From positions 1 to 21,102 of the IMG/VR virus record IMGVR_UViG_3300010883_014311: a DNA stretch of 21,102 nucleotides, one strand, 5' to 3'. The position numbers and the translations under genes were made by a program. Below are positions 690-20,987 of this stretch, in pieces. The stretch comes from a virus. Within the stretch, counting starts at the first letter, position 1; each line of letters begins with the position of its first letter. The notes below the pieces were generated by a model. The model searched no databases, was not told the origin of the DNA, and worked only from the letters and a program-made list of their open reading frames with translations.

Positions 690-1327
690 ACCTGAATCAT
701 TTGCGTACTCACGGCATCGTGTCTTGGGATCAGTATCAGGAGTTAGTCGCGAAGCGAGAGAGGCCCGACCAAAGTATCATCAGAGAGGTTGCGCACGGTC
801 TTCTACACCGACAGAACATACCGGAGGAACACGCGAGGAAGCTGGCAGAGGTAAACGCAGGTCGGCGAGCCAACATGCCGTCGATGATGGCCGTCACGGA
901 CATGAGGCAAATGCTTCGGCTCGTGAAGTTGATGGAAAAGCTGGAGGGGATGGAAGGTACAGCCTTCGACGACGAGAAGTTCGCGGAGTACACCTTCGAG
1001 CAACTGCTGGACCTGATGAAGTTTGCCAGTGGGGATATCAAAGACATAATCAAGCAACTGTCTGATGACTCCAAGCAAAAGGGTTTCCAGACGGCTGTCG
1101 AAAATATGTTCCAGTACAACTTCGTGCAGGCATCCGGCGCGGGTACGTCTTTTGATTCAAGGCTGCCGGAAGACCCCCGTGAGCGGGCAGGCTTGATGCA
1201 GAAAGTCGATGATATGCTCGGAAAGTTTCGAGACGGAAACCTGATTGAAGTTCAACCACAGCCACAAGAGGACGCGAGCGTTGCAGACAGCAGCCCCACC
1301 ACCAACGACCCCGACTCTGTCGGCTGA
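647..1327 (+). CDS. Zinc-finger protein in small-terminase position
   Basis: The 226-residue protein starts with GTG at 647, with GGAG at 632-635, and overlaps the previous gene by 43 bases. Residues 4-23 form a C2H2-like finger: C4-x2-C7, the hydrophobic pattern EFRTLNLNHL, and His18/His22, followed by HGIVSWDQYQ. This resembles the short MucR/phage zinc-finger modules that bind DNA. The middle is helical, with acidic and Met-rich segments, and the tail is Gln/Pro/Ser-rich and probably disordered. Its place directly before terL, where many phages carry the small terminase subunit, makes it a candidate DNA-recognition subunit of the packaging machine. That role rests on position and the finger only; a transcription factor is the alternative. 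Confidence 0.55.
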   Translation: MQICEVCEKEFRTLNLNHLRTHGIVSWDQYQELVAKRERPDQSIIREVAHGLLHRQNIPEEHARKLAEVNAGRRANMPSMMAVTDMRQMLRLVKLMEKLEGMEGTAFDDEKFAEYTFEQLLDLMKFASGDIKDIIKQLSDDSKQKGFQTAVENMFQYNFVQASGAGTSFDSRLPEDPRERAGLMQKVDDMLGKFRDGNLIEVQPQPQEDASVADSSPTTNDPDSVG

Positions 1328-4319
1328 GGATAAGCTCGCGTTTGAAATCGCGCAGCGTATCTTTGCCGAGCAACAGGTTCTGGGTGCCTCGTCAACCCAC
1401 GAGGAGCTTACGGGCAAGGACTACCGGCTCCATCCGGTCGGGCCGGAGCAGTTCTTGACGGATGACGCCTACGCCGGGAAGTACGGCTCCGGGCTATACA
1501 AGCTGTGGCGAGAAGAGTTGATCTACGTCCTTGAACCATCCAACGGGGTCACAGAATGGATTCTGTGTCTGGCTGGTGATACGCAGGTTCCTTTACTGGA
1601 TGGTACTCAATCCTCTTTGGAAGAGCTTTACGCGAAATGGAAGTTGTCACCCGAACCGTTTTGGGTCTACTCGGTCGACCAGAAAACGGGGGAAATCGTT
1701 CCGGGTGAATGTACGAGAGTGACGAAGTTTGCAGACGATAAACTCTTCAAAGTGACTCTCGATGACGGCTCTACTTTTCGGGGGAATGCCGATCACGAAA
1801 TGGTGATGCGAGACGGTACGAAGCGGAAGATTCGGGACTTACAATCTGACGACCGTTTGATGCCCTTCACCACAACAGTAAAAAAGATGGAAGGAAAACG
1901 TCTGACGGGTTACGAGCAGGTGTACTTGCCGGGGCCACAGAAATACGCTTACACACACCGAGTCGTAGGGCGTATGCTCGCAGGGGGTGTTTGTCCAAAA
2001 TCCGTGGATGGGGACAGAGCGGTGCTGCACCACATAGACATGGTGAAAAGTAATAACGCACCGGAGAATTTGAAGTGGATGGGGTGGTCTGCACACCGAG
2101 AACTCCATCGGTTTGAGAAGTCTCCCGAACATTTAGCGACTCTTTCAAGGCTGGGTACTGAAAGAGCTACCGACCCTGATTCTGCTTTCCGTCGAGGGCA
2201 TCAGAAATTTATGCAGTCTGGCGAAGGCAAGAAACTATCTCGATGCAACCTGTCGAAGGCTGACGTCTCAAATGCCGAGAGAAAACGTCGGGGTGATAAG
2301 GGGAGAAAAAATAGGTGGGCGGACCCGGAGCAGCGTCGAGCAGCTTCGGAGAGAATGAGCAAGAGAAATGTCGGTAATCAGTACGGAGCAGGTGAGCGAA
2401 ATCACCGTTTCCGGGAAGACGTGACTGTCGAGTCGATCTATGAAACGTACCAATCGTGTGAAAGGTTACAGGATTTATATGACGAACTGGGGTGTAACCG
2501 AAAAGTAGTGGTTCGCGTGCTTGATGAGTCAGGGTTGACGCTGGATGACTTGAAGGCCAATTACCAAAACCATCGGGTCGTGTCCGTTGAGGAAGACGGA
2601 GTCGAACCTGTTTATTGCTTGACCGTCCCAGAGTGGGAGAACTTCGCGATTTCGACCAACGGACGTTGCGGCGTGTTCTCTGGAAATACGGGTGCGATTG
2701 GTCTGGGTAAGTCCACGATCGCTGCTTTGGCGATGTGCTACAAGCTGTACCGCATCGGCTGCCTGATAGACCCTGCTTCGTTCTTTCGCCTGATGGCGGA
2801 CTCCGGGATCGTGTTTGGTGTTTATTCCCTGTTCAAATACAAGAGTCAGGACGACAACTACGGTCTGCTGAAAACGATGATTGATGGCATTCCGTTTTTC
2901 AAAGACAACTTCCCGCGACCGAAGCATCGCTCGCCGTCAGCCGCTGACACGCTTGAGTTCCCAAATCGCGTATCGGTCATCGCGGGTTCGACGGAATTAC
3001 ACGCGCTCGGCCTCAACTTGCTTTGCCTGTTGATGGACGAAGTCAACTTCATGAAAGAGGTTGAGAAAAGCGGCACCGCGACTCGGACGTCTGCTCTCTC
3101 GGCCAAGGTGTCTCAAGCGCAGGAACTTTACACTGCATCACTTCGGCGTCTTGAGTCTCGGTTCCAGTTCAAGGGCCTGACACCCGGTCTGATGATCCTG
3201 ATTTCATCCCGGAACGCAGAGTCGAGTTGGCTCGAACTTCACATGCAGGAGTACGCTGACGCCCCTCACGTCCACGTCAGTGACTACTCGCTTTGGGAAG
3301 TCAAAGCTGAGGTGATGGGTTACTCCGGGAAACGGTTCTTCGTTGAAGTCGGCGACTTCATGCACCCCAGCAAGATCATTGAGTCACCACGAGACGCGAG
3401 GGCTGACGCCGCTGTTGTCTCCCCACCTGTTGAACACTTAGACGAGTTTGAACGAGACATTGAAGGTGCGCTGCGGGATATCGCGGGTGTTGCAAATATC
3501 GCTGTGGCCCCACTCATTCGGCAGCGGGAGTCGTTGAAGGCAGCCATTGACCCGAAACTCTTCCATCCGTTTACGGCTCAGCAGTTCCCGATTTCACATC
3601 TGGATGACATTCCAATTTCGAGGTTCTTTTTGCCTGAGCAGGTCATTCAGATCAATCAGTCGTTTCCCCGGCCCCGCCTCAACCCGACCGCTCCCCGGTT
3701 CATCCACGTTGACCTTGCGGAGTCTCAAGACGCTGCGGGTATCGCGATGGGTCACGTTTCTGACATTGTCGGGTCCAACCCCCGAATCACTATCGACTTC
3801 AAATTGAGGCTGTTGGCCCCCTCTGAGGGAGAGATTGACTTCTCCAAGATCATCGATTTCGTGCTGTACCTGTTCGGTGAATGCGGATACCCTATCAAAC
3901 GAGTGAGTTTTGACCGTTTTCAGTCCACTCACTCTCGACAGATTTTGACAAAGTTGGGGTTTGAATCTCCTCATTTTTCTGTGGACCGTACCGACGAGGC
4001 TTACATCGTTCTGCGATCCACGCTTTATGAGGGTCGACTGTCCACGTATGATTACCCTCCGTTCTTCGACGAGCTTGCGAAGTTGATTCATGATGTGGTG
4101 AAGAAAAAAGTTGATCACCCACAGGGCGGATCGAAAGACTGTTCTGACGCCGTTGCGGGGGTGGTCGCTCAACTCACGGAAGCGATAGGAACAGACAAGA
4201 CAATCCAAGCACATTCTGGCGGTCAGATGATTACGCCCGAACCCGTGAAAAGTTTGCAGGAACGTCTGGAAGAGACAGGCGCGATGGCGACGGCTGCCAG
4301 TGCAGGAAAATTGGTCTAG
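1281..4319 (+). CDS. Terminase large subunit (TerL) containing an intein
   Basis: This is the ATP-driven DNA-packaging motor and headful/cos nuclease. I choose the TTG at 1281 because AAGAGGA sits 8 bases upstream; another TTG at 1245 would add 12 residues. The precursor has 1012 residues, of which 96-469 are an intein, so the spliced product would have about 638, close to the usual TerL size. Walker A is GAIGLGKST (residues 471-479, just after the intein). Walker B is LLCLLMDE (Asp586-Glu587). The RuvC-like nuclease domain shows its acidic residues in HVDLAES (Asp811), SFDRF (Asp878) and KDCSDA (Asp956). It overlaps the zinc-finger gene by 47 bases and lies 26 bases before the portal gene, the standard packaging neighbour. 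The activity needs protein splicing, because the intein separates the ATP-binding loop from the preceding extein. Confidence 0.93.
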   Translation: MQTAAPPPTTPTLSAEDKLAFEIAQRIFAEQQVLGASSTHEELTGKDYRLHPVGPEQFLTDDAYAGKYGSGLYKLWREELIYVLEPSNGVTEWILCLAGDTQVPLLDGTQSSLEELYAKWKLSPEPFWVYSVDQKTGEIVPGECTRVTKFADDKLFKVTLDDGSTFRGNADHEMVMRDGTKRKIRDLQSDDRLMPFTTTVKKMEGKRLTGYEQVYLPGPQKYAYTHRVVGRMLAGGVCPKSVDGDRAVLHHIDMVKSNNAPENLKWMGWSAHRELHRFEKSPEHLATLSRLGTERATDPDSAFRRGHQKFMQSGEGKKLSRCNLSKADVSNAERKRRGDKGRKNRWADPEQRRAASERMSKRNVGNQYGAGERNHRFREDVTVESIYETYQSCERLQDLYDELGCNRKVVVRVLDESGLTLDDLKANYQNHRVVSVEEDGVEPVYCLTVPEWENFAISTNGRCGVFSGNTGAIGLGKSTIAALAMCYKLYRIGCLIDPASFFRLMADSGIVFGVYSLFKYKSQDDNYGLLKTMIDGIPFFKDNFPRPKHRSPSAADTLEFPNRVSVIAGSTELHALGLNLLCLLMDEVNFMKEVEKSGTATRTSALSAKVSQAQELYTASLRRLESRFQFKGLTPGLMILISSRNAESSWLELHMQEYADAPHVHVSDYSLWEVKAEVMGYSGKRFFVEVGDFMHPSKIIESPRDARADAAVVSPPVEHLDEFERDIEGALRDIAGVANIAVAPLIRQRESLKAAIDPKLFHPFTAQQFPISHLDDIPISRFFLPEQVIQINQSFPRPRLNPTAPRFIHVDLAESQDAAGIAMGHVSDIVGSNPRITIDFKLRLLAPSEGEIDFSKIIDFVLYLFGECGYPIKRVSFDRFQSTHSRQILTKLGFESPHFSVDRTDEAYIVLRSTLYEGRLSTYDYPPFFDELAKLIHDVVKKKVDHPQGGSKDCSDAVAGVVAQLTEAIGTDKTIQAHSGGQMITPEPVKSLQERLEETGAMATAASAGKLV
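1566..2687 (+). other. Intein with HNH homing endonuclease, inside TerL
   Basis: An in-frame 374-residue insertion. It begins at Cys (TGT 1566-1568) with the block A pattern CLAGDTQVPLLDG. A block B region follows (GNADHEMVMRDG, with His but Asn in place of the usual Thr). The homing endonuclease is HNH type: LHHIDMVKSNNAPENL starts near intein residue 154, with the His pair at 155-156, and continues to a further AHRELH. Block F is VEPVYCLTVPEWENFAIS and the end is GVFSGN, followed by Thr as the first C-extein residue. Splicing would join WIL to TGAIGLGKST and restore the Walker A loop. The penultimate residue is Gly, not the usual His. The helical segment between HNH and block F may be a DNA-binding extension. 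Codon use looks more A/T-rich than in the exteins, consistent with transfer. Confidence 0.9.
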
Positions 4320-8633: not shown

Positions 8634-8997
8634 CGCGGCGAAGAAAGAGCAGAAGAAAAATCGTGTTCTCGCGAGGCGGAAAAAATTCCGTTTGGAAGAG
8701 TCAATGAAAAGGCGGCAATTCGACAAAAAAGCCAAGGGTCGAACGATCAAGTTGGCGGAAGAGGCTCCAGTTCCGGGGCGGAACGATCCTTGCCCCCTGC
8801 ACCCCGAACACAAGCTCAAGAAATGCCCACACGGTTGCTTGGATGTTTTCAAGCGGAATCGCTCGCGTCACGCGGGGGACGCAACTATCGTTCGGGTTGA
8901 AGACGGCGACAAGCGTAAGGGAAAAATTGGCACAGAGATTGACCCGGCGGCGGGTGCATTAACCGACTTGGCTCAAATTTCAGGGGACGGATTCTGA
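8626..8997 (+). CDS. Small SEC-C-like metal-binding protein
   Basis: The 123-residue protein starts at ATG 8626, where GGAAGGGG lies 7 bases upstream; a TTG three bases earlier is also in frame. The first 45 residues are extremely basic (Lys/Arg runs, helical). Residues about 48-67 read VPGRNDPCPLHPEHKLKKCP, followed by HGC, which strongly resembles the SEC-C zinc-binding motif (PGRNDPCPCGSGKKYKKCC) known from the SecA C-terminus and many small proteins. Here one Cys is replaced by His or Leu, so metal ligands could be Cys, His, Cys, and Cys. It overlaps the genes on both sides (TGA within eight bases at the start, TGATG at the end). A nucleic-acid or ribosome-linked adaptor role is possible; function unknown. 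Confidence 0.72.
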   Translation: MDDAAKKEQKKNRVLARRKKFRLEESMKRRQFDKKAKGRTIKLAEEAPVPGRNDPCPLHPEHKLKKCPHGCLDVFKRNRSRHAGDATIVRVEDGDKRKGKIGTEIDPAAGALTDLAQISGDGF

Positions 8998-9926
8998 TGG
9001 CGATAACGGATGGCATCGAGACGAAGTTGGGTCCGGGGCATTATCCCTTGGTAGTGTTCATCCGTGCGCATGAATTTCCCGAATTCGTCGCGGACACTGT
9101 TGACGCGATCCGTTATTACACGGAAGGGCCGGAGCCTCTCATCGTCGTCACCGTCGATCGGAACAAGCGGATCGAGGAAGCGATGCGACCGGCCTACCCC
9201 GACCTGCTGTACTACACCTCGCCGAACAACTGCGGGTGGGGTGGTGGTCTGTTTCGCCTGTACTGCGAAGCTGTGACGTGGCTCTGCCAAGAGAAGAAAA
9301 TCAGCTTCGACGTTTTGTGGAACATGGACTACGACCTGATTCCAATCAATCCCGGCTGGGACACCCACTTCGTTAAGAGGTTCCAGAACAAGCCGAGAAT
9401 TGGTCAACTGGGCAGGTACAACCCCAACTCGGCGTTCTGGAAACGCCGGATGCGAATGCAGTTGAACAAGCTGAAAAAGTGCTTTTCTGACCACGGGAAA
9501 CAGTGGCCGAAAAACTATAAGACCGGGGATCACGTCGCCGGAGCCTGTGGCGTATTCAAAGGCCAGTGCGTCGCGCAGATGCTTTCGCTGGGCCTGCTGG
9601 AGAGACCCTTCCGGGACTTGGGTGCCGTCTGTTCTCTGGCCGATGACCCGATGCTCTCCCTGATGGTCTCCGCCGCAGGGTATGAGTTCAAGGAAATGGG
9701 TGAAAAGGCCTACATCAAGTGGCGGATGGAAGAGGACTATCGCAAGCTACCGGGAAAGGGGTATATTCTCTACCACCCGACGAAGCTGGTTCCGGGCAAT
9801 CAGCCCTACTCAGCGAAGAGCGAACTGAAATGTCGGAATTTCTTTCGTAAGCTACGATCGCAAGAGCCGATCAAGATGCTGAGGGAGTCGCCGAGTACGG
9901 GTAAGCCGAACTCAATCCTTTGTTGA
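8997..9926 (+). CDS. GT-A-fold glycosyltransferase
   Basis: The 309-residue protein starts at ATG 8997, overlapping the previous TGA by one base. The GT-A pattern is visible: an N-terminal beta-alpha Rossmann part (YPLVVFIRAHEFPEFVADTV), VVTVDRN, NNCGWGGG, and the metal-binding motif MDYD (Asp111-Tyr-Asp113) in FDVLWNMDYDLIPINPGWD. Further on are GACGVFKG and ADDPMLSLMVSAAGYEFKEMG, matching the acceptor-side ED/DD element of such enzymes. It would transfer a sugar from a nucleotide donor with a divalent metal. No membrane segment is seen, so it acts in the cytoplasm on a soluble or virion-protein acceptor, or on a lipid-linked one. The end of the protein is basic. Confidence 0.7.
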   Translation: MAITDGIETKLGPGHYPLVVFIRAHEFPEFVADTVDAIRYYTEGPEPLIVVTVDRNKRIEEAMRPAYPDLLYYTSPNNCGWGGGLFRLYCEAVTWLCQEKKISFDVLWNMDYDLIPINPGWDTHFVKRFQNKPRIGQLGRYNPNSAFWKRRMRMQLNKLKKCFSDHGKQWPKNYKTGDHVAGACGVFKGQCVAQMLSLGLLERPFRDLGAVCSLADDPMLSLMVSAAGYEFKEMGEKAYIKWRMEEDYRKLPGKGYILYHPTKLVPGNQPYSAKSELKCRNFFRKLRSQEPIKMLRESPSTGKPNSILC

Positions 9927-11749: not shown

Positions 11750-12234
11750 ACGTCGAGCAACTTACGACGGTCCCAGACGGCCTTCGCGCCATGTACGTTG
11801 TTGTCGTGCGAGAAGATAGCGAGCAGGGCTATTCTACTCACATCATCGATCGGCTGGTCGACGCGGTCTGCATTCTCAATCTGGACGCGAACGACATTCG
11901 CACCACACCCGGCGAGAGGCAGGGAGCAAAGCGAGGACGTAAGTCCAAAATTGTTGGTGTCATAATGGAAGGGGCGGGGGAGCCTAAGCCTGCGTCCTTG
12001 GCGACTGGTTGGTTTGAGAGGCTGTACGGGGACGACTTGATTCAAGCGAAGTTTATCGGATACACCCGATCGGACCACACGGTCGACGAAATCATGATGG
12101 CCGTCGTTAAGGACAAGGACGAGGGTGTGGAGTTCCCAGAGGGGGAAGAAACCCCCACGATGCGTCAGACTCGGCGTTACTGGGCGAAGGTCACTCGTGA
12201 GGCTTTGGACGGGATCATAGGGCATGAAGATTGA
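11746..12234 (+). CDS. Unknown 162-residue protein
   Basis: GTG 11746 overlaps the previous TGA (GTGA), and GGAG lies 8 bases upstream. The protein looks like a folded alpha/beta domain (MYVVVVREDSEQGY; HIIDRLVDAVCILNLDAND) with a basic loop (ERQGAKRGRKSK), then KIVGVIMEG and a C-terminal helical tail with an acidic EFPEGEETP linker. No family recognised. It overlaps the glycosyltransferase at 12224 by 11 bases. Confidence 0.72.
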   Translation: MNVEQLTTVPDGLRAMYVVVVREDSEQGYSTHIIDRLVDAVCILNLDANDIRTTPGERQGAKRGRKSKIVGVIMEGAGEPKPASLATGWFERLYGDDLIQAKFIGYTRSDHTVDEIMMAVVKDKDEGVEFPEGEETPTMRQTRRYWAKVTREALDGIIGHED

Positions 12235-12925
12235 AGCCGTGGTTGTGTGTCGGGACTACGCGGATTTTCTCCACTACACTCTGCCGTGGACAAAGCAAGC
12301 TGTCGACAACTTGGTCATCGTCACGAGCGAAGAGGATGAGGAGACTCAGAGGGTCTGTGAGTTCCATGACGTCCGCTGCCTTGTGACGGACGCTTTCGAG
12401 AAATACCGGGGGGAGTTAAACAAGGGGGCCGCGATCAACGAGGGGCTGTCAACTCTCGACCGCAATGACTGGCTGCTTATTCTTGACGCGGATATCCTGA
12501 TTCCGCCCCACGTTCGTCCCTTCCTCGAATCTTCCGCGTTGAACACGAAAAGTCTGTACGGCGTGGATCGGCGGAACTGTGACGGTAAAGTGATCTTGGA
12601 TGAAGTCACGGGAGGATCATGGGGCTTCGATCACCTACCTCTGCTGGACCGTGTCAGCATTTACGGTGGTTATCCCCCCGTGGGTTACTTCCAGTTGTTT
12701 CATTCGTGCGAACACGGACACGCACCTTGGTACGATGAACTCTACCCCTACGCAGACAAGACGGACGCGGTTTTCGCGAAGAGCTTCAACATGCGGGGTT
12801 ACCTGAAAACATGGGTGGTTCATCTGGATAACGGCGGTCACGTCGGTGGTCAGAACTGGAAGGGCCGGGAGTCTCCCCGTTTCGTGACCAAAGCGGAAGT
12901 CACGCTTGACTTGAAAAAAGAGTAA
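12224..12925 (+). CDS. GT2-like glycosyltransferase
   Basis: The 233-residue protein is a small GT-A enzyme. It begins IEAVVVCRDYADFLHYTL (nucleotide-binding strand and helix), then LVIVTSEEDEET, a KGAAINEGL turn typical of GT2 enzymes, and the metal-binding DxD in WLLILDADILIPP (Asp88-Ala-Asp90). Later W/G motifs (GGSWGFDHLPLL, GYFQLFHS) are consistent with an acceptor pocket. It would add one sugar from a nucleotide donor in the cytoplasm. It is followed by the Pro/Gly-rich protein and a sulfotransferase, a context that suggests modification of a phage product. No membrane helix is seen. Confidence 0.74.
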   Translation: MKIEAVVVCRDYADFLHYTLPWTKQAVDNLVIVTSEEDEETQRVCEFHDVRCLVTDAFEKYRGELNKGAAINEGLSTLDRNDWLLILDADILIPPHVRPFLESSALNTKSLYGVDRRNCDGKVILDEVTGGSWGFDHLPLLDRVSIYGGYPPVGYFQLFHSCEHGHAPWYDELYPYADKTDAVFAKSFNMRGYLKTWVVHLDNGGHVGGQNWKGRESPRFVTKAEVTLDLKKE

Positions 12926-12940
12926 GGATAGGATTCGTCC

Positions 12941-13933
12941 ATGTCAGTTCCCCCGAACCGTATTGCGAAGTATCTGGATCAGCAGCCGGATGGAGACGAG
13001 AGGTTTCCTTACCCTTCGCCCCCGATGCCGATGCCCGCACCTCTGATGCCACCCCCGATAGCCCATCCGCCGCAACAACTACCGCCGCAGTTCACGCCGG
13101 GTGCGCCGTTGATGCCGTTCCAGCCTCATTTTTTTGCACCACCCCCGGTTGCGCCTCCGCAGGCTTATCAGCCACCTGAGTTGCAGGCGGCTCCCCCGGA
13201 CCAACATCCACCACCGCCTTACGGCGGTGACGGCGGGGGCGGTGACGGCGGGGGCGGTGACGGCGGGGGCGGTGACGGCGGTGACTGGAGCTTCCCCCCT
13301 TCCCCTCCGATGGGTCGCGGAAAGTTGGCGAATCCTTTTGTCACTCGTCACGTCACGACGGCGATGGTGGAAAACCCGATGTACGTCGTCGCTACGGTTC
13401 CGTTTTACGGTGAGAACGAAATTGCGTTGTGCAGCAACGCGGGCAACCCCCCACCAATTTGCATCGCTTATTGGGTCTTCCCTGTATCCTACGTGGAGAT
13501 TCAGGTCCGCCAATACTTTCACCCTCCCGGACCCTTTGCTACAGTTCCAGATAACGCTGCTGGCTGGCCGGATCATGATGAGGCAACCTTTCGCAAAATG
13601 GGTTGGCTGGCAAGCCCAGCCACAACTCACCGCTGGCCGGTATTCCAGTACGACCCCGCCGGGCAGATGGTCAACTTCGACGCATCCATTCTCGACACGC
13701 CTTACTCTGACTGGCGTCTGGGAACGGTAGATCGTTATGTACAACTGATAGGCGACGTTGTTGACAAACTCGCGGAAGACAGCCGGAAGATGTGGTTGCA
13801 TCCACCTTGGCTGAAGGGGATGCCGATGATGTATGCACCCTTCACCGGCCTGCCGTCTCTCTACTCGCAGGCTTTGGAGTACGGTTCTCCTCTCGTCTGT
13901 GCAACTCCCGGTTGGGAGAATATCGATGAGTAA
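12941..13933 (+). CDS. Pro/Gly-rich protein with GDGGG repeats, unknown
   Basis: The 330-residue protein starts at ATG 12941, with TAGGA 7 bases upstream. Residues 20-95 are very rich in Pro, with Met, Gln and Ala (MPMPAPLMPPP and similar). A Gly/Asp repeat follows, near residues 95-115. From about residue 125 the protein seems folded, with many aromatic residues (YVVATVPFYGENEIALC, CIAYWVFPVSYVEIQVRQYF), and a helical or loop-rich end. The disordered half resembles linkers or fibre-type extensions of virion proteins, but I find no recognised domain. It lies between a glycosyltransferase and a sulfotransferase, so it is a candidate acceptor for their products. That is inference from neighbourhood and composition only. 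Confidence 0.72.
   Translation: MSVPPNRIAKYLDQQPDGDERFPYPSPPMPMPAPLMPPPIAHPPQQLPPQFTPGAPLMPFQPHFFAPPPVAPPQAYQPPELQAAPPDQHPPPPYGGDGGGGDGGGGDGGGGDGGDWSFPPSPPMGRGKLANPFVTRHVTTAMVENPMYVVATVPFYGENEIALCSNAGNPPPICIAYWVFPVSYVEIQVRQYFHPPGPFATVPDNAAGWPDHDEATFRKMGWLASPATTHRWPVFQYDPAGQMVNFDASILDTPYSDWRLGTVDRYVQLIGDVVDKLAEDSRKMWLHPPWLKGMPMMYAPFTGLPSLYSQALEYGSPLVCATPGWENIDE
13223..13285 (+). repeat. Tandem 15-base repeat encoding GDGGG
   Basis: The unit GGTGACGGCGGGGGC is repeated exactly three times (13226-13270), then a partial, varied copy ends the array at 13285. It keeps the reading frame and encodes a Gly/Asp linker, five residues per unit. Identical units suggest recent slippage, so copy number may vary between relatives. 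Confidence 0.9.
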
Positions 13934-14651
13934 ACGCCGGGCGGTAATCCTTTCGAGTGTTCGCACCGGCTCAACGTGGTTGGGTGAGACGCTGGGACAA
14001 CATCCCGCTATCACTTACGACGAGGAGTTGTTGTTGGAAGGCCCAACGGTCGCGGGCAACACAGGGCCTGCCGTCAAACAGGCTTACGACGCAGACGAGG
14101 CTTGGAATTACATTCACAGTTTCGTGGACATGGCGACGACGTCATGGCATTTGTGGAAGCTGCAAAGCTACCAAGCGTTGGACCCCCCAATTATGGGTTT
14201 CACCGAGCGACTGGCTGCGGACAAGAAATTGGCTGTCATCTTCCTGCGAAGGGAAAACCTGTTTCACTGGTTCACGTCGATCAAGGTCAGTGAAAAGTTG
14301 AAGGTCTATACGAAGCGTGTTGGTGACGACCTTCCTGAAGTGGAGCCTTTCGAGATTGACGGCGATGAAATCGAACACGCCATGAAAGCGGAGTTGGCGT
14401 GGTGGGAGTTGGTCCATGACCTGTTTTCTTCACGACCCTGCTACATCGAAGCCTCTTACGAAATGATGTGCCACGACTACGAGGGTGAGTCGGCGAGGAT
14501 CATGCGGGAGATGCAGTTGAACGCGGTTTATGTGCAGACTCGATCGTTGAAGATGCAGACTCGTGACCCGAAGAGGTTGGTCACGAATTACGCTGATCTG
14601 TGCGTTCGGTTCTCACTGACCGAGTTTGCGAAGCACGGCTTCTATGGCTGA
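13926..14651 (+). CDS. Sulfotransferase (PAPS-dependent, Stf0/NodH-like)
   Basis: The 241-residue protein starts at ATG 13926, overlapping the previous gene by 8 bases, with GGGAGAA upstream. The 5'-phosphosulfate-binding loop is ILSSVRTGSTWLGE (residues 8-21), the classical sulfotransferase P-loop-like pattern. The 3'-phosphate region is VIFLRRENLFHWFTSIKVS (residues 104-122), with an Arg and a Ser in the expected places. The C-terminal part with SYEMMCHDYEGESARI and VTNYADLCVRF resembles the acceptor-side helices of bacterial Stf0/NodH-type enzymes. It would move sulfate from PAPS to a sugar hydroxyl in the cytoplasm. Its direct link to a glycosyltransferase and a repeat-rich protein is suggestive. 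Uncommon in phages as far as I know. Confidence 0.72.
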   Translation: MSKRRAVILSSVRTGSTWLGETLGQHPAITYDEELLLEGPTVAGNTGPAVKQAYDADEAWNYIHSFVDMATTSWHLWKLQSYQALDPPIMGFTERLAADKKLAVIFLRRENLFHWFTSIKVSEKLKVYTKRVGDDLPEVEPFEIDGDEIEHAMKAELAWWELVHDLFSSRPCYIEASYEMMCHDYEGESARIMREMQLNAVYVQTRSLKMQTRDPKRLVTNYADLCVRFSLTEFAKHGFYG

Positions 14652-14946
14652 ATTTATCGACCCGGAGAGGATTCGGCGGCTTTACCACTTTTTGGCGGAG
14701 AAGGGGGCAGAGGTTCCCCCTGAAGAGTTGGCGGCGCAGATAAAGCTGTTTTTCACGAAGGTGCAAGACGAGCTTGCGGTTGAAGGTGTCTGGTGGACGG
14801 CGTTGGAGTTGATCGCGTATTGCGAGCAACCGATCGTTATGACGGCCCTTCGCGCACACGCGGATTTTCGGAAAGAAAAAGAGGTAAGTTGGCAGGTGTA
14901 CGTTGACGTAATCACATCACTTGAGCGGGGAAAGTTTAAGCCATGA
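14644..14946 (+). CDS. Small helical protein, unknown
   Basis: The 100-residue protein starts at ATG 14644, overlapping the sulfotransferase by 8 bases; the ribosome-binding site is weak, so it is probably translated by coupling. It is almost entirely alpha-helical by pattern (IRRLYHFLAEKGAEVPPEEL, AQIKLFFTKVQDELAVEG, WTALELIAYCEQPIVMTAL). Its end overlaps ThyX by four bases (ATGA). No family recognised. Confidence 0.68.
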   Translation: MAEFIDPERIRRLYHFLAEKGAEVPPEELAAQIKLFFTKVQDELAVEGVWWTALELIAYCEQPIVMTALRAHADFRKEKEVSWQVYVDVITSLERGKFKP

Positions 14947-16133
14947 CGGAAGCACACGAGTTACATGCGGCGACGATGAAAAAACCAGAATACGCCATGA
15001 TGCCGGATGACGAGATACTGTCACTCGCGAAGTGTCTCGACCCGGACGCCTTGAAACGTCATCACGAAGTTGAGCAACTGCGGTGGAAGGTCTTCCCGGC
15101 CTTGAGTGAAGGGTTTGTTACCTTGGTCGACGTGATGGGTTCGGATGCGGCGGTCGTCCAAGCGGCTCGCGTCAGCTACGGAGAGGGGACGAAAAAAGCC
15201 AGTTCCAACGAGGGGTTGATCCGCTACTTACTCCGCAACCGACACACGACTCCGTTTGAAATGGCGGAAGTGAAGTTGCTGGTCAAGGTTCCGATGGACC
15301 TTTGGCGTCAATGGATTCGTCACCGGACGGCCAACGTCAACGAGTATAGCACGCGGTACTCTGTCGCCATCGACGAGACCGACACGACGGAACCTGATGC
15401 TTGGCGGGCGCAGGCAGGGTCGGCGAACAAGCAAGGCTCCGGGGGGATGATAAAAGTGTGGCCCGAAGGGATGGACGAGGAGCAGACGATTGCGTATGTC
15501 AGAAAAACCATCCCTTCGCTTGCGGGGGATGATATCGAGATTCAGTGTGACGAAGCTGGAGTGGTGCATTGCGGTGGATACGCAATCACATCCCCCGGAC
15601 ATTATCTGACGATGAGGGAGTCACACCTTCAACGGCTTACCCGCGAAGTCTACGAGGAGAGGGTAAATAAGTTCGGCGTCGCGCGTGAGCAGGCTCGGAA
15701 AGACCTGCCCCTCTCGACCTACACGATGGCCTACTGGAAAAACGACCTGCACAATCTGCTGCACTTCCTTGGCCTGCGAATGGACCCACACGCGCAACTG
15801 GAAATCAGGGAGTTCGCGACGATCATCGGGGAAGAGATCGTTGCACCCTTGTTCCCGGCGGCGTGGGACGCCTTCGAGAAGTACCGACGCCAATCGACGT
15901 TCGTGAGTGGACCCTGCCGGGATGTTCTCGCTGCGATGCAGAAGCACTACAGCGGTGACGACTGTCACTGCGTGGAAGGTTCTTACTCGGACACGGCGTT
16001 TGAGGCAGCCACTGAGATCGCGTTTCCTGCGTGGATGAGGAAAGACGACGATGGAAACCTGAAGCCCCACCGTGAACGTGAGGAAGTTCGTTCGACGCTC
16101 ACCAGCCTTGGTCTGCTGTCTGCTGGGGGGTAG
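14943..16133 (+). CDS. thyX: Flavin-dependent thymidylate synthase (ThyX), enlarged
   Basis: ThyX makes dTMP from dUMP using methylene-tetrahydrofolate, NADPH and FAD. ATG 14943 overlaps the previous TGA, with GGGG upstream. The signature is RHRTANVNEYSTRYS (residues 126-140), close to the family RHRxxSxNxxSxRY pattern with Ala for Ser. HTTPFE (101-106) and REQARKDLP (248-256) followed by NDLHNLLHFLGLRMDPHAQL (267-286) also match. At 396 residues it is much longer than typical ThyX (about 220-270): extra sequence lies between the signature and REQAR (about 180-228) and in a C-terminal extension (about 318-396) with CHC and acidic runs. The enzyme boosts thymidine supply for phage replication. 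Confidence 0.93.
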   Translation: MTEAHELHAATMKKPEYAMMPDDEILSLAKCLDPDALKRHHEVEQLRWKVFPALSEGFVTLVDVMGSDAAVVQAARVSYGEGTKKASSNEGLIRYLLRNRHTTPFEMAEVKLLVKVPMDLWRQWIRHRTANVNEYSTRYSVAIDETDTTEPDAWRAQAGSANKQGSGGMIKVWPEGMDEEQTIAYVRKTIPSLAGDDIEIQCDEAGVVHCGGYAITSPGHYLTMRESHLQRLTREVYEERVNKFGVAREQARKDLPLSTYTMAYWKNDLHNLLHFLGLRMDPHAQLEIREFATIIGEEIVAPLFPAAWDAFEKYRRQSTFVSGPCRDVLAAMQKHYSGDDCHCVEGSYSDTAFEAATEIAFPAWMRKDDDGNLKPHREREEVRSTLTSLGLLSAGG

Positions 16134-16135
16134 AG

Positions 16136-16699
16136 ATGACGGAGCGGTTCCGCGTCACCAACTGCCCTTGCGAGGGTAGCTGGCGAGTCAAGATGGCTCG
16201 CTGGGTCTGCCTGCAACGAGGTGAAGTCGTTTGTCTTCTGAAGTGCCTCGACTGCGGGTGGAAATGGAAAAGTAAAGCGAGGTACGCGGGTCGGCTGCCT
16301 GACTGGGCGGAGCGTGCAAGGTCTGGGATGACGGATGAAATGATCTTGACTCGACTACTCAACGGGAACCTGAGAATCGACCCGGTCACGTCTGTTGTCG
16401 AGTCCAACCTGAAAGGTCGTTGGCAGGTCTTGCAACAAGTCGAAAACCAGCACGAGAGCGGCTACCGATGCGTCAGCGTTTGCTGGGAAGGGCAGAAGAA
16501 AAAGATCACGGTCCACCGATTGCAGTGGCTGGCTTATTCCGGGAAAGTGGTTCCAGAGGGTTACGACGTGCATCACAAGCGAAGCCCCCCGCGACCACAA
16601 ATGAAGCCCAACGCACTAGAAAACTTGGAACTGAAAGACTCGTTAGAGAACCAGTCGATAGGAAAACCTCCGGGCTGGGATGAAGGCTTGCCGTTTTAA
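16136..16699 (+). CDS. HNH endonuclease, free-standing
   Basis: The 187-residue protein starts at ATG 16136, two bases after the thyX stop, with GGGGGG upstream. Its C-terminal half has the HNH-like pattern KITVHRLQWLAYSGKVVPEG, YDVHHKRSPPRPQMKPNALENLE: a His pair and Asn spaced as in phage HNH homing-type nucleases. The N-terminal part has Cys pairs (NCPCEG, VVCLLKCLDCGWKW) that could bind zinc, and a WQVLQQVENQHESGYRCVSV segment. Such genes often spread by cutting unoccupied relatives. It sits at the end of a coupled gene run and just before a candidate promoter, a common place for homing genes. Confidence 0.8.
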   Translation: MTERFRVTNCPCEGSWRVKMARWVCLQRGEVVCLLKCLDCGWKWKSKARYAGRLPDWAERARSGMTDEMILTRLLNGNLRIDPVTSVVESNLKGRWQVLQQVENQHESGYRCVSVCWEGQKKKITVHRLQWLAYSGKVVPEGYDVHHKRSPPRPQMKPNALENLELKDSLENQSIGKPPGWDEGLPF

Positions 16700-16700
16700 C

Positions 16701-16728
16701 TTGACTTGCTGTCAACTCACGGTACATT
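16701..16728 (+). promoter_or_regulatory. Promoter with overlapping dyad operator candidate
   Basis: TTGACT (16701-16706), a 16-base spacer and TACATT (16723-16728) fit a sigma-70-type promoter, about 50 bases before ATG 16778. The -35 box overlaps a perfect dyad: TTGAC (16701-16705), five bases, GTCAA (16711-16715), a plausible repressor half-site pair. The 78-base gap contains no gene. Confidence 0.55.
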
Positions 16729-16777
16729 GCGAGATACACCACACACCACTTTCATTTGAACCTTTTGGAGACGGTCG

Positions 16778-17455
16778 ATGCTACACGGACGAACGGACTA
16801 CGCGGAAATTCAAGACCCTCGTATGCACGGTATCGGCGAGGATGAGCCGGTCATGCTGTTTCGCGCACAGGACGCCTTGGCCCCTCTGGTGCTGGAATCC
16901 TACGCGGCGCTGCTCCGCGAGCGGACGGATGAGGTGGAGCTTGCTGTGCAGGTCCAGAGGCACGCTGACCGGATGCGTGCTTGGCAAGAGGTGAACGGTA
17001 AGCAGTTCCCCGACGTCTACCCGCATAACTACCTTGGCGAGAACGCTCCCACCCCGGACGAGGACACGGCCCCCGTTGAGCAGTGTGGCACCGCACCGGC
17101 ACAACCTGACGGCCCCACACCGACCGGACCCGCGAAAGAGGATGGTCATTGGCCGACAGCAGGGGTGGGTTCGCCCGAAGAGGAAGACCCCACGGCCATT
17201 CCTGAAGGGGACGCGGAAGTGATAGGCATGTCACCCCCGATGAGGGAAGACCCCAACGCTGAGACTGAGGCCGTCAACGAGGCGATGGACGACAACCCGG
17301 ATAACGACGGATCGTACACCGAGCCACCGAGTGAATCCCCAGCGGAAGAGGATGAGGGGGATGGCACCCCACTGGCGAACTCGCAGGAGACTGGACCCCT
17401 CACTGACGCCGGGTCAGAGTTGATGGGTGGGCAACCGACAGAACACGGGAAATAG
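16778..17455 (+). CDS. Phage protein of a DEPV-LRAQD type, acidic tail
   Basis: The 225-residue protein starts at ATG 16778, with GGAG 7 bases upstream. The first 80 residues look folded: GEDEPVMLFRAQDALAPLVL followed by helices to ADRMRAWQEVNGK. Small phage proteins with a DEPVF-LRAQD-type segment are familiar to me, but I know no function for them. The remaining 145 residues are Pro/Glu/Asp/Thr/Ser-rich and disordered. They include IGMSPPMREDPNAETE, whose SPPM core recurs in other proteins here. It is the first gene after a candidate promoter. Confidence 0.74.
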   Translation: MLHGRTDYAEIQDPRMHGIGEDEPVMLFRAQDALAPLVLESYAALLRERTDEVELAVQVQRHADRMRAWQEVNGKQFPDVYPHNYLGENAPTPDEDTAPVEQCGTAPAQPDGPTPTGPAKEDGHWPTAGVGSPEEEDPTAIPEGDAEVIGMSPPMREDPNAETEAVNEAMDDNPDNDGSYTEPPSESPAEEDEGDGTPLANSQETGPLTDAGSELMGGQPTEHGK

Positions 17456-17466
17456 GCTGAGTAGCA

Positions 17467-17721
17467 ATGTCGAAGCTGCGGGGAAAAGATGTTGGTCACG
17501 TTGAGGGTGCGGGCGAGGGGAGTCCAAATCCTGCCCCTGACGGGCTACTCTCCAAAAAGTGCCGCCGCCTTGTCGAACTCGCATATCTTCGGGGGAAGGT
17601 GCATTCGAGGGGCGGCGGCTTTCATTTTACGCAACTGGTTGGGTGGGACTATCTCGAACCCGATGGTACACCCACTCTGAAGGGCCGGACCTACTATGAG
17701 CGAAACATCGCAGTCTCCTGA
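17467..17721 (+). CDS. Unknown 84-residue protein
   Basis: ATG 17467 lies 11 bases after the previous stop; the ribosome-binding site is weak (AGGCTGAG). A Gly/Pro-rich start precedes a compact domain (KKCRRLVELAYLRGKVHSRG, HFTQLVGWDYLEPDG, TYYERNIAVS) that may be a small winged-helix-like or unknown fold. A strong RNA inverted repeat lies inside it. It overlaps the DUF3310 gene by 26 bases. No family recognised. Confidence 0.58.
   Translation: MSKLRGKDVGHVEGAGEGSPNPAPDGLLSKKCRRLVELAYLRGKVHSRGGGFHFTQLVGWDYLEPDGTPTLKGRTYYERNIAVS
17561..17619 (+). other. Long inverted repeat (transcript hairpin)
   Basis: GCCGCCGCC (17561-17569) can pair with GGCGGCGGC (17611-17619), and TCGAA (17573-17577) with TTCGA (17604-17608), separated by a small internal loop. 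Inside, CTTC (17587-17590) pairs with GAAG (17595-17598) around GGGG. A U-rich run (CTTTCATTTT) follows. It lies within a coding region; it could attenuate transcription upstream of the DUF3310 gene or control its translation. Confidence 0.55.
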
Positions 17722-17989
17722 CACGCCTGTGTCACTGGCAATCCAGCACGGGGGCAAGCACTACAAGGATTTGGCGATCCAGCCCGCTGAGTATTGCCAC
17801 AAAAACAAGTTCCAGTTCTGCGAGTCTGAAGCTATCAAGTACCTGTCGCGGTTCCGGGCAAAGAACGGAGAGGAAGACCTGCGGAAGGCAATCCACTTCG
17901 CGTCGATGATCCTTGACATGGAGTACGGTGTCACGGCGACGACGGAGTACGCCATTCAGGAACCTTGCCCAAAGCAGGATGGGGCTTGA
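17696..17989 (+). CDS. DUF3310-family protein
   Basis: The 97-residue protein starts at ATG 17696, with AAGGG upstream at 11 bases. The family pattern is clear: HYKDLAIQPAEYC (residues 22-34), then EAIKYLSRFRAKNGEEDLRKA (about 45-65), where DUF3310 members have NviKYl-R---Kng-eDL-KA. The domain also forms part of T7 gp1.7, a nucleotide kinase, but most members are uncharacterised. Near a ThyX gene it may act in thymidine nucleotide metabolism, which is inference. It ends at a stop that overlaps candidate promoter boxes for the next gene. Confidence 0.82.
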   Translation: MSETSQSPDTPVSLAIQHGGKHYKDLAIQPAEYCHKNKFQFCESEAIKYLSRFRAKNGEEDLRKAIHFASMILDMEYGVTATTEYAIQEPCPKQDGA

Positions 17990-18012
17990 CTCCCGCTTGA
18001 CTTACGTTTAAC
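17986..18012 (+). promoter_or_regulatory. Candidate promoter with repeated TTGACT boxes
   Basis: Two TTGACT boxes (17986-17991 and 17997-18002) precede TTTAAC (18007-18012). The first box gives a 15-base spacer, slightly short. The -10 fit is moderate. Transcription would start near 18020 and leave a 40-base leader before ATG 18061. The repeat may instead be an operator; the same box occurs at 16701. Confidence 0.4.
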
Positions 18013-18060
18013 ATGGCTGACGTTCCGACGTTGGCCTTTTTTATTGCGCGGAGACCCACC

Positions 18061-18498
18061 ATGACACCTTTCGACGTCATCTTCACTGTTGTCGGCTTGT
18101 TCATCGCCTGCGTGATACTCGATCTTTCCATGCGAAGGAAAAAGAAGAAAAAAGCGGTTGAGCCTGTCGATGACGTCGAATGCAACTGCTGCGCGAACCT
18201 AGACACGGAACATACGCGGTCCTGCCCACGATACACGATCGGTGTCCGCAAACTGCTGAGGAAGCTCCTGCCGGGCAGTCGGATGATGATCAACGGTTTG
18301 TTGGTCGGTCGCCCTGAAAAAGACTGGGGAGACTGGCTGTGGGTGACGCGGGAAGGTGTCTCGCTCTCAGAGGACGCGGCTCTCACCTTGATCTACGAGG
18401 CTGCGTTCAAACCACAGGACAAACAACCGACGAGGCTTCTCGAAGGTCAGAATCAGGGGGAAAGGGCAAAGTCCCCGTGGAGAGACGCCCTGAATTGA
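18061..18498 (+). CDS. Single-helix membrane protein with Cys cluster
   Basis: The 145-residue protein starts at ATG 18061, with GGAGA 6 bases upstream; an in-frame ATG at 18013 lies in the candidate promoter and is not preferred. Residues 4-22 form one hydrophobic helix (FDVIFTVVGLFIACVILDL), followed by RRKKKKK, so the C-terminal domain is predicted cytoplasmic. The soluble part has a Cys-rich patch (CNCCANLDTEHTRSCPR, about residues 49-65), possibly metal-binding, then DWGDWLWVTREG and a basic tail. The stop overlaps the next start (TTGA). No family recognised. Confidence 0.68.
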   Translation: MTPFDVIFTVVGLFIACVILDLSMRRKKKKKAVEPVDDVECNCCANLDTEHTRSCPRYTIGVRKLLRKLLPGSRMMINGLLVGRPEKDWGDWLWVTREGVSLSEDAALTLIYEAAFKPQDKQPTRLLEGQNQGERAKSPWRDALN

Positions 18499-19088
18499 TA
18501 AGCCACATGCAGGAATGGACCCTTGACAGTTCGTTGAAGTATCTGGATGCTAAATACCCCAGCTTAACACCGGCTGAGGACAAAGCCAAACGGGTCGACA
18601 ACGAGTTCGCTGTCTCGTGCCGACAGGATGCACTCGTTCTGTCGGCTGAGTGTCCTGACTGCGGGTCAGAAGCAGGCTGCCAGCACGCCAAGGATTGCAC
18701 TTATGAACGCCGGGTAAGAACACACGGGGTGGGCGAGAGCTTGCTGGTTAGTCCAGATCGGACAACTGAGGACAAAGTACCCAGCTTAACACCTGCTGAG
18801 CAACACACCCACGACGAAGTGAAAGCGGCCATCGCCGGGATGACGGCTCTCTGGGACACAGCTACACCAGAGCAGAATAGCCGCATGTTTCGGCTACCCA
18901 TCCAGTACGGCCTGTTTCCCCTCGTGGTTATGGAGAGGAACGGCTGCGATCTGGATCAAGCTCTCACGACTATCGAGGCTATGGTGGCTGAGGCCCCTGA
19001 CGACCTTGCTCTTGATCTAAGGTGTCTGGATTGCGGGCATCCCCTGACTGAGGGTACTCACTTCACCTGCGGGGCGTCTAAAGTCTAG
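18495..19088 (+). CDS. Unknown protein with Cys clusters and PSLTPAE repeat
   Basis: The 197-residue protein most likely starts at TTG 18495, which overlaps the previous TGA and has GGAGAG 10 bases upstream; the next ATG (18507) has no visible ribosome-binding site. A first zinc-finger-like region reads CPDCGSEAGCQHAKDC, and the end has CLDCGHPLTEGTHFTC. YPSLTPAEDKAK and VPSLTPAEQHTH are two copies of one segment, and the DNA is also nearly repeated (near 18558 and 18780). This suggests internal duplication. A helical middle (LFPLVVMERNGCDLDQALTT) resembles small helical domains. No family recognised. It ends next to the minus-strand genes. Confidence 0.68.
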   Translation: MISHMQEWTLDSSLKYLDAKYPSLTPAEDKAKRVDNEFAVSCRQDALVLSAECPDCGSEAGCQHAKDCTYERRVRTHGVGESLLVSPDRTTEDKVPSLTPAEQHTHDEVKAAIAGMTALWDTATPEQNSRMFRLPIQYGLFPLVVMERNGCDLDQALTTIEAMVAEAPDDLALDLRCLDCGHPLTEGTHFTCGASKV

Positions 19089-19101
19089 GCGAAACCTCTG
19101 A

Positions 19102-19356
19102 CTAAGAGCAGCAGACTGACCTTAATCGAAAAAACGTCGTAAGTCGTTTACCCAGCAGATACTTAGAAGCAGCCGCTTCTAACCGCTTAGATGCAGGATA
19201 TGGCAGGTAATGCCAGAAAGTGAGTAGTAGACTATGGTTAGCCCAAACGAGCCTAACCCACCGCGATGTTCGATCCCGCAGGGACTGCACGGTCACTGCA
19301 CGCTGGCAGAGGGTCACACCGGCGGCTGCGGGTCTCTTATGCTTACGCTTCGCCAT
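19102..19356 (-). CDS. Minus-strand basic protein, unknown
   Basis: The 84-residue ORF lies on the minus strand: ATG at 19356-19354, with GGAG about 6 bases upstream and the previous minus gene ending at 19359, so the two are tightly linked. It begins MAKRKHKRPAAAG, is basic throughout, and ends in a Leu/Arg/Phe-rich part. No family recognised. The good ribosome-binding site and spacing are the main support; the sequence composition alone would not convince, and the DNA also has several hairpins, so a structured RNA is a possible alternative. Confidence 0.45.
   Translation of the reverse strand: MAKRKHKRPAAAGVTLCQRAVTVQSLRDRTSRWVRLVWANHSLLLTFWHYLPYPASKRLEAAASKYLLGKRLTTFFRLRSVCCS
19163..19258. 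other. Cluster of three inverted repeats
   Basis: TTAGAAGC (19163-19170) pairs perfectly with GCTTCTAA (19175-19182) around four bases. TGGCA (19201-19205) pairs with TGCCA (19211-19215). GGTTAG (19236-19241) pairs with CTAACC (19253-19258). They lie within the minus-strand ORF 19102-19356 and just inside the end of two convergent genes. A structured RNA, a terminator zone or chance are all possible. Confidence 0.45.
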
Positions 19357-19358
19357 GA

Positions 19359-19658
19359 TTACTCCGTCAGGGTTACGTGGGGGTGCTTGTAAATCCTAGC
19401 GTGCTTGCGTTCTGTGGGATTGGTGGGCTGGTATTGATTGGGCTTCTTCGCTTTGTTGGTCTCAGAATTCTCCAAGCGGATAATCTTCTTCATCTGAGAT
19501 ATGTACTCCGGCGTGGGGTCCGGTGTAGCAGGTCTGTACGTGAACTTCTTTCCGTTTTTAGTTCGGGTCTTTCGTCTCTTCCTACGTGGAGGTTGTGGGG
19601 TTGGCATTGGGGCCTTCCTCTTTGGTAAGTTTATCGTCTTCGTTAAGGCTTCAACCAT
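19359..19658 (-). CDS. Minus-strand Lys/Arg/Pro-rich protein, unknown
   Basis: The 99-residue minus-strand protein starts at ATG (19658-19656), with a GAGGA 10 bases upstream. The frame is open further (to 19928), but that part shadows the plus-strand zinc-ribbon gene. The protein is very basic: PMPTPQPPRRKRRKTRTKNG, KKFTYRPATPDPTPEYISQM, and a Lys/Asn/Gln/Pro tail, with one helix (EYISQMKKIIRLEN). It resembles unstructured nucleic-acid-binding tails but has no recognised domain. It uses more AGA, AGG and ATA codons than its neighbours, hinting at separate origin. It reads into the other minus-strand gene with two bases between stop and start. Confidence 0.55.
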   Translation of the reverse strand: MVEALTKTINLPKRKAPMPTPQPPRRKRRKTRTKNGKKFTYRPATPDPTPEYISQMKKIIRLENSETNKAKKPNQYQPTNPTERKHARIYKHPHVTLTE

Positions 19659-19760
19659 AGCTTCCGCTTCCTCGTAGCGGAATGCCTTTGTGGGTACATG
19701 CGTTCGTGTCGCGGCTGGAATCGTCGCGACGTGCTTTGCGATGGCAGTTTGGAGAACGGG
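19659..19760. promoter_or_regulatory. Divergent intergenic region with hairpin and palindrome
   Basis: This 102-base gap separates the minus-strand start (19658) from the plus-strand start (19761). A seven-base-pair inverted repeat spans 19662-19682 (TTCCGCT and AGCGGAA); on the minus strand the GAGGA ribosome-binding site lies in its loop. A perfect 10-base palindrome CGTCGCGACG lies at 19722-19731. No convincing -35/-10 pair is visible on either strand. Confidence 0.45.
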
Positions 19761-19940
19761 ATGAAAAGACGTCGCCCAGTTCGTGACCCCATCGAGAAGT
19801 ACCAGTGCCAAGGCTGCAAATACGAGGAACGTCGCAGCAGGCGAACATGCCGTAGACCCTGCCCGGAGTGTGGAGCTAGAATGTTGAGGGGGGAACCTTC
19901 GATCACGGACGACAAGGAACCTGACCATGACGATCGGTGA
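19761..19940 (+). CDS. Small zinc-ribbon protein
   Basis: The 59-residue protein starts at ATG 19761, with GGAG 6 bases upstream; an in-frame upstream extension is not supported. It has two Cys pairs, CQGC and CPEC, spaced as in a zinc ribbon (YQCQGCKYEERRSRRTCRRP, then CPECGARML), plus an extra Cys between. The ends are Arg-rich and Asp-rich. Such ribbons bind nucleic acid or proteins; no specific function is known to me. It overlaps the next acidic gene by 14 bases. Confidence 0.7.
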   Translation: MKRRRPVRDPIEKYQCQGCKYEERRSRRTCRRPCPECGARMLRGEPSITDDKEPDHDDR

Positions 19941-20097
19941 AACAACTTCGTTCGGTGGTGACGATGATGAGCTTGAAGACGAGGAGCTTATCGACGAAGA
20001 GGAAGAGCTTGAAGAGGATGACGAGCTTGAAGATGGTGAAGAGAGCGAAGACGATTACAACGAAGACCGCTTTCCCGATGACGAGGATGAATGGTGA
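19927..20097 (+). CDS. Very acidic 56-residue protein
   Basis: ATG 19927 to TGA 20097 gives a 56-residue protein in which about two thirds of residues are Asp or Glu. ELED, LEDE, EEEL and EDDEL form an imperfect repeat, and the end is FPDDEDEW. The ORF falls below common length cut-offs. It overlaps both neighbours (14 bases upstream, one base downstream), so it is coupled. Such a polyanion could mimic DNA or bind basic proteins, for example the minus-strand Lys/Arg-rich product; this is inference. The ribosome-binding site is weak. Confidence 0.6.
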   Translation: MTIGETTSFGGDDDELEDEELIDEEEELEEDDELEDGEESEDDYNEDRFPDDEDEW

Positions 20098-20987
20098 TGG
20101 CTAAGAGGCAGATCATCCAGATTTGCGGCAAGGGTTACTCCGGGTCGTCCATCACCAACATGCTGTTCGATTCAGTCACCGGCGTTCGCGCGTTGGGAGA
20201 GTTCAACGGCAAAGCGAAGAACGACGTCTTCCCGTACCAACCTGACATTCCTTGCTACGCCGGGTGTGAGCGTTGTGATTTCTTCGACGGGGTTCACGAG
20301 AGCAAGACGCCTTACGGGGAGATGTTCGATCGATACCCGGATGCAAAGGTGCTGGTGGACTCGACCAAGCTCTGGCGTGTACTGGAAAAGTTCTCCAAGG
20401 CAGAGCCGTACTACGACTACATCCGCGTCCGCATCGTGAAGCTCCCGCACGCTTGGCTGCATTCGTCGATGACTCACAACGGCTGGGGCTGGGATGATCA
20501 GCCTCGAATGGAGAGCTTGATCAACAATTGGTTTGGCGTGCATCTCACGCAAGTCCCGACCCTGACGACGATCCTCTACCGCGACTTTATCGCTCAGCCT
20601 GATTTCTGGCTGGCTCATTGCATGGGTCTTCTGGGGTGGCCGAGAATCTATCGACGAGAACATTGGTGGCAAACCTCTTCGCACATCATCTCTGGCAACC
20701 TCGCTCTGAGGAACCAACAGACAAACCCAGAGTTCTTTGACACGGCTGACGCCGGGAAGTATCAGGGCCTGAAGCACACGCTGTTTGTGGACCGCGCGTG
20801 GCGAGAGGACAAAGACTTCCTCAAAGTCGTCGCCCGCCTCTACGCGAAGAACTGGGACGAATACGAGGAACGTCTCAAAGACGTCGGCCTCTTCAACATG
20901 GATATGCTGGTGGACGATCTGGTGACCGACATGAAACTCTCGGATCGATTGCCCGCCGTACAAGGGGAGCCTGTTTTCGATGGATGA
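20097..20987 (+). CDS. Sulfotransferase-like protein
   Basis: The 296-residue protein most likely starts at ATG 20097, overlapping the previous TGA, with GAGGA 9 bases upstream; in-frame ATG 20091 and GTG 20094 are alternatives. The start QIICQ-type strand leads to GKGYSGSSITNMLF (residues 11-24), matching the sulfotransferase phosphosulfate loop. GEFNG (34-38), the Cys group CYAGCERC (53-60) and VLVDSTK (85-91) match the GEl, CsCG-C and DsSK elements of bacterial sulfotransferases. A later Tyr/Trp-rich part (WQTSSHIISGN, LFVDRAWRED) is consistent with the acceptor half. The predicted reaction is PAPS-dependent sulfation of a sugar or small molecule. It differs clearly from the enzyme at 13926, so it is a second, separate gene. 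Confidence 0.65.
   Translation: MAKRQIIQICGKGYSGSSITNMLFDSVTGVRALGEFNGKAKNDVFPYQPDIPCYAGCERCDFFDGVHESKTPYGEMFDRYPDAKVLVDSTKLWRVLEKFSKAEPYYDYIRVRIVKLPHAWLHSSMTHNGWGWDDQPRMESLINNWFGVHLTQVPTLTTILYRDFIAQPDFWLAHCMGLLGWPRIYRREHWWQTSSHIISGNLALRNQQTNPEFFDTADAGKYQGLKHTLFVDRAWREDKDFLKVVARLYAKNWDEYEERLKDVGLFNMDMLVDDLVTDMKLSDRLPAVQGEPVFDG

Follow-up and report, generated by a model that had tools for sequence, protein, structure and literature searches.

A probable class 1 HNH intein at the N-terminal edge of the Walker A loop in a phage TerL gene

Why does a long in-frame insertion lie directly in front of the ATP-binding loop in a phage TerL gene? The question arises in a 21 kb IMG/VR virus fragment (record IMGVR_UViG_3300010883_014311, positions 1 to 21,102, here called the window), whose translation contains a reading frame of 1024 codons without a stop (bp 1245–4319). 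The frame reads ...GVTEWIL, then CLAGDTQVPLLDG...ENFAISTNGRCGVFSGN, then TGAIGLGKSTIA...; the insert thus starts CLAGDTQVPLLDG, has CGVFSGN as its last residues, and is flanked by EWIL and TGAIGLGKST. Comparison with sequence relatives and models indicates that it is very probably a mobile class 1 intein with an internal HNH homing endonuclease, which would excise itself to restore TerL.

The insertion and its TerL host

The insert occupies exactly bp 1566–2687 (374 in-frame codons without a stop; all features given here are on the plus strand), and translation reproduces the position that the initial annotation had assigned to it between WIL and TGAIGLGKST. Upstream lies a TerL N-extein of 95 amino acids ending in EWIL (bp 1281–1565), which aligns with the N-termini of intein-free TerLs, and downstream a C-extein whose first residue is Thr+1 (bp 2688–4316). 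TTG at bp 1281 and a start at bp 1245 are both kept as candidates for the TerL initiation codon. In the translation, the insertion point follows the last residue (Leu) of the pre-P-loop strand and precedes the Thr before the first Walker A glycine (L^TG); Thr alone precedes that Gly, in agreement with the earlier statement that the insertion sits one residue ahead of it. The Walker A sequence GAIGLGKS (bp 2691–2714) would be restored on splicing.

The joined flanks form a 638-amino acid TerL (with the TTG start at bp 1281) that phage TerLs match continuously, without a break at the junction; against Vibrio phage V-YDF132 the joined protein scores 271 bits versus 259 for the C-terminal part alone. 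Ten insertion-free TerL relatives align across the junction with neither a gap nor extra residues. A count over 142 distinct TerLs gave Leu at −1 in 71 of them and, at +1, Thr in 80, Ser in 14 and Cys in 5, so the site usually offers a splicing nucleophile. The one-piece match, the gap-free relatives and these residue counts make the L^T junctions firm. An alternative C-terminal junction, STN^GRC, was rejected because its +1 residue would be Gly and the homologues would not match. An ordinary TerL domain was likewise rejected, since relatives exist that have no residues at all there; none was found that has such residues as ordinary protein sequence, and the relatives that carry them have them as recognizable inteins.

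A tblastn search with the C-extein matched 356 phage records, mostly annotated as terminase, with identity reaching about 36% in the best. TerL matches PHROGs weakly (phrog_2, E 0.0035) and the C-extein has no match in NCBIfam; because these two collections give almost no signal, TerL was assigned to its family through its tblastn matches to phage genes annotated as terminases. The portal gene directly downstream of TerL is T4-like (Pfam Portal_T4, E 3e-50), so the "T4-like" label used earlier suits the neighboring gene, whereas TerL itself has only a weak family match. The SKD of the C-terminal nuclease motif (bp 4131–4139) is intact in the window TerL; in other phages G^SKD is the insertion point of related HNH inteins.

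Farther along the window, bp 14943–16133 encodes ThyX (Thy1, E 2.4e-44), in which the matched stretch exceeds the profile by about 55 residues (240 residues versus 185 profile positions), too few for an intein. A weak sulfotransferase-like gene (Pfam) lies at bp 13833–14651, and the start of the gene at bp 20091–20987, which has no Pfam match, resembles it. With two weak glycosyltransferase-like genes (bp 8997–9926 and 12224–12925), these make glycan modification by the phage possible. There is also a free-standing HNH-like gene at bp 16136–16699 (HNH_3, E 1.7e-4, below the cut-off).

Splicing and endonuclease domains

The insert matches Pfam Intein_splicing (E 1.1e-10) and HNH_3 (E 1.3e-5) and NCBIfam TIGR01445 intein_Nterm (E 1.7e-6); all score above their cut-offs, and a chance match is rejected on that ground. 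It is in frame, absent from homologues, and contains intein blocks A, B, F and G, as an intein should. The block A, HNH and block F/G patterns that had been noted from the sequence are thus borne out by the intein and HNH models, except that the C-terminal block is noncanonical, ending in SGN and not HN. A Hint fold is predicted as well: an AlphaFold2 model (alignment A7) has a mean pLDDT of 86, rising in the splicing domain to 94–98 over residues 1–100 and 93–98 over residues 341–374. A search of the PDB with this predicted fold gave 47 matches at E ≤ 0.001, with inteins at the top (E from 5.7e-08), and almost all of the matches listed are inteins. The predicted domain arrangement is uncertain (pTM 0.66, with low TM versus whole endonuclease inteins).

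The HNH endonuclease domain (bp 1950–2108) is defined by the HNH_3 match and has its motif residues H155, H156, N164, H177 and H181, all invariant among 20 aligned relatives. It is followed by a basic region (bp 2112–2567), predicted to be mostly helical and probably DNA-binding, which terminates in a helix-turn-helix-like stretch, CNRKVVVRVL.

If the intein works as its residues suggest, terL would be translated as a precursor of 1012–1024 amino acids in which Cys1 would form a thioester with the N-extein (the class 1 route, from established intein chemistry). Thr+1 would accept the N-extein from Cys1, cyclization of Asn374 would release the intein, and ligation of the exteins would give a TerL of about 638 amino acids with its P-loop intact. 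The central HNH part may cut intein-free terL alleles at this same site, and the break in the empty allele would then be repaired from the intein copy, by analogy with HNH homing elements. With 374 residues at the P-loop edge, it is sound to suppose that the intein would have to be removed before the TerL ATPase could work; Kelley et al. (2016) argue the same for other TerL inteins (PMC5050341).

Same-site inteins and the splicing class

Another IMG/VR record (L002) is the same phage with the same intein, differing by 1 base in 4710, which falls on a third codon position within the intein. Two more distant inteins lie at exactly the same codon: one of 411 amino acids in a 73 kb contig (L254, AIL^C...SSN^TGGIGSGKT, with an open TerL frame) and one of 362 amino acids in a 60 kb contig (L230, equivalent to L262; EGVL^C...SSN^TGAI). 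They are 36–40% and 27–37% identical to the window intein, respectively, depending on the alignment. In L230 the TerL frame is broken by an apparent frameshift within Walker A just after the intein (L230:3484–3520), which could reflect faulty assembly or a real lesion.

The residues that define class 1 are all present in the window intein: Cys1 (bp 1566–1568), the putative first nucleophile and invariant among 20 aligned relatives; His77 (B:10), in the block B sequence N74-A-D-H77 (bp 1785–1796); terminal Asn374 (bp 2685–2687); and Thr+1. Three residues that usually assist are replaced, since B:7 is Asn74 where T-x-x-H is usual in the family, the penultimate residue is Gly373 (bp 2682–2684) and not His, and within blocks F and G (VYCLTV...SGN, bp 2607–2687) F:4 is Cys351 (bp 2616–2618) and not Asp. 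Cys1, N-x-x-H, Cys at F:4 and Thr+1 are common to all three same-site inteins (the N-x-x-H of L254 and L230, GNARH in both, was taken from the alignment), and the penultimate residue is Gly in the window intein and Ser in the other two. All three also carry additional residues ahead of block G, the distance from F:4 to the intein end being 23, 29 and 27 residues, versus the usual 18–19. This residue combination is unusual within the set examined, because 69 of 87 intein ends (placed by regular expression, a few of the non-His ones, such as L111, L304 and L312, being probably mis-set) have Asp at F:4 and a penultimate His.

Thr at B:7, the penultimate His and Asp at F:4 are nevertheless common and not defining features, since active exceptions are known (PMC5050341, PMC4031507). 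The Bethlehem gp51 (RDF) intein, a class 1 phage intein with a penultimate Gly, splices completely, and its G316H change slows splicing strongly (PMC5050341), so the penultimate Gly is no argument against activity. The window intein is best read as class 1 with a noncanonical active site. Its splicing activity is not certain, given the replacement of the block B Thr by Asn and of the penultimate His by Gly.

Cys at F:4 and Thr at +1, present in all three same-site inteins, are two of the three WCT residues of class 3, and one could imagine class 3 or hybrid chemistry in which Cys F:4 with Thr+1 is the first nucleophile and Cys1 is dispensable. The B:12 position of the window intein is Met79 and not Trp, however, and Cys1 is present, for which reasons class 3 itself was rejected. 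Known class 1 inteins that have Cys at F:4 are polyphyletic (PMC3196547), only one residue is commoner than Cys at that position (PMC4031507), and F:4 varies among Asp, Cys and Asn in related Cys1 inteins, all of which makes the hybrid chemistry very unlikely. There is a similarly slim chance that the trio forms a distinct mechanistic group, a living intermediate between classes 1 and 3 in which either cysteine could start splicing; such a group would have retained the two cysteines, Cys1 and F:4, along with Thr+1, while having neither the Thr that is usual in block B nor a penultimate His. The odd catalytic residues common to this site-specific clade offer a mutational test of what class 1 splicing truly needs.

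The absence of Thr from block B and of a penultimate His, together with the apparent Walker A frameshift just past the intein in L230, could also point to an intein that has decayed and lost its splicing, leaving terL a pseudogene or a gene for a fused protein. But the 1024-codon frame is open in the window and in L002, as is the frame of L254, and Cys1, His77, Asn374 and Thr+1 are retained; phage inteins with a penultimate Gly can, moreover, splice (PMC5050341). We regard decay as extremely unlikely.

Mobility, insertion sites and known systems

The three same-site inteins fall into a single clade (support 99/95) in an intein tree of 77 rows. This grouping is good, though not above doubt, since the branch of the L230 row (as L262) is long and bootstrapping had yet to stabilize. 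Other inteins of the HNH family, at the nuclease site, in portal proteins and in GyrB, also cluster largely by site in this tree. The TerL hosts of the trio are far apart in a 142-row tree made by a quick method, where the branches with strong support require three or more label changes. The TerLs closest to that of the window (L020, L119 and L021 at 43% and L193 at 42%) have no P-loop intein, and L119 has one at the nuclease motif instead. One intein clade, scattered hosts and closer TerLs without a P-loop intein fit homing or repeated loss. The distribution would thus fit homing transfer of a class 1 HNH intein at a fixed site, and a single old insertion with many losses could also explain it, in keeping with an intein divergence that resembles that of the exteins. 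Their similar divergence gives no sign of recent transfer.

The initial annotation had further suggested that splicing could time packaging. Slow or condition-dependent splicing would then set the onset of the motor, and the intein would be kept for that reason. The insertion does adjoin the ATP site, its rate could be tuned by the noncanonical catalytic residues, and conditional splicing is reported for other P-loop inteins such as that of RadA (PMC5790916). Against this, the nearest TerL relatives lack the insertion, so intein timing is not needed in this TerL family; HNH conservation is explained by a homing element without benefit to the phage, and sporadic insertion among relatives is expected of a mobile element with no regulatory role. 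Regulated packaging is therefore improbable and finds no support in this sequence, whereas the other part of that reading, an intein at the N-terminal edge of Walker A, stands on the models, the insertion-free and same-site homologues, and the predicted fold.

P-loop inteins were observed at five points in this TerL family: V^CVTG (SP-15), L^TG (window, L254, L230), GS^TGSGK (L059), GxxG^[ST]GK (L031, L056, L165) and GK^[ST] (L013, L026, L064, L103, L149, L242 and L179, the last two assigned by profile coordinates only). Further TerL inteins interrupt the nuclease motif (G^SKD) or other sites. The family is thus targeted at several points within about 10 residues of the P-loop, plus the nuclease motif, by several intein types, and the window intein brings one more insertion point to the ATP-binding loop of the packaging motor. 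Clustering of inteins in one gene is already known from haloarchaeal MCM (PMC10643990). The TerL sites form a natural series for asking why inteins choose active sites and how homing specificity moves by a few codons.

One TerL frame (L103:17–5308) carries three inteins (GK^T, RDY^S and G^SKD), and those of L149 and L176 carry two each. The TerL of Rhodobacter phage RcTiptonus (L013), annotated simply as terminase, has a different intein at GK^T that looks class 3-like, since its first residue is Arg and the W, C and T residues are apparently present. In Bacillus phage SP-15 (KT624200, bp 12000–21000; L100) TerL is apparently split over three genes: gp22 has the N part, an intein and the P-loop, with NITLD as its last residues; gp24 has the middle part, followed at RDIF^C by an N-intein whose first residue is Cys; and gp26 has a C-intein with a VVVHN end, then CGLLDEVEF and the remaining TerL. 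Its assembly would appear to need cis splicing and protein trans-splicing. Judged by eye, gp22 and gp24 are probably separated by an RNA intron; an Rfam search of the SP-15 TerL region found no intron.

A scan of genome contigs with the intein pair gave mainly GyrB inteins of the same family, and the single match in a plasmid search was also GyrB. Same-HNH-family inteins at the GyrB-like site GDSAGG^S (L332, L334–L340 and L342) occur in Patescibacteria, Omnitrophota and one Micrarchaeota assembly.

The window intein belongs to a familiar type, but its TerL site is one that we did not find described: L^TG is absent from the TerL intein survey of Kelley et al. (2016; PMC5050341), and no other papers mapping TerL P-loop intein sites were found in the open-access literature. 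The mycobacteriophage TerL1-a and TerL1-b inteins are likewise in the TerL P-loop, with removal inferred to be necessary for the ATPase; TerL1-a sits between the Walker A Lys and Thr and TerL1-b one residue away (PMC5050341). L^TG is 8 residues upstream of the GK^[ST] site, so the window intein is not an allele of either, and its extein family is probably different from that of their hosts. The Bethlehem gp51 intein, discussed above, is class 1 with a penultimate Gly as in the window and splices efficiently (PMC5050341), but its host protein differs. The SP-15 gp22 intein is a homologous HNH intein (28% identical over its full length, E 6e-28), also at the P-loop start of a related TerL; it lies two codons farther upstream (EV^CVTGGIG), has an HN end, Cys+1 and Asp at F:4, and falls outside the same-site clade. 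HNH inteins at TerL G^SKD, in phage portal proteins and in GyrB (L033, L052, L131, L332 and others) belong to the same intein/HNH family by blastp and alignment, and differ from the window intein in their sites and in having mostly T-x-x-H, Asp at F:4 and an HN end.
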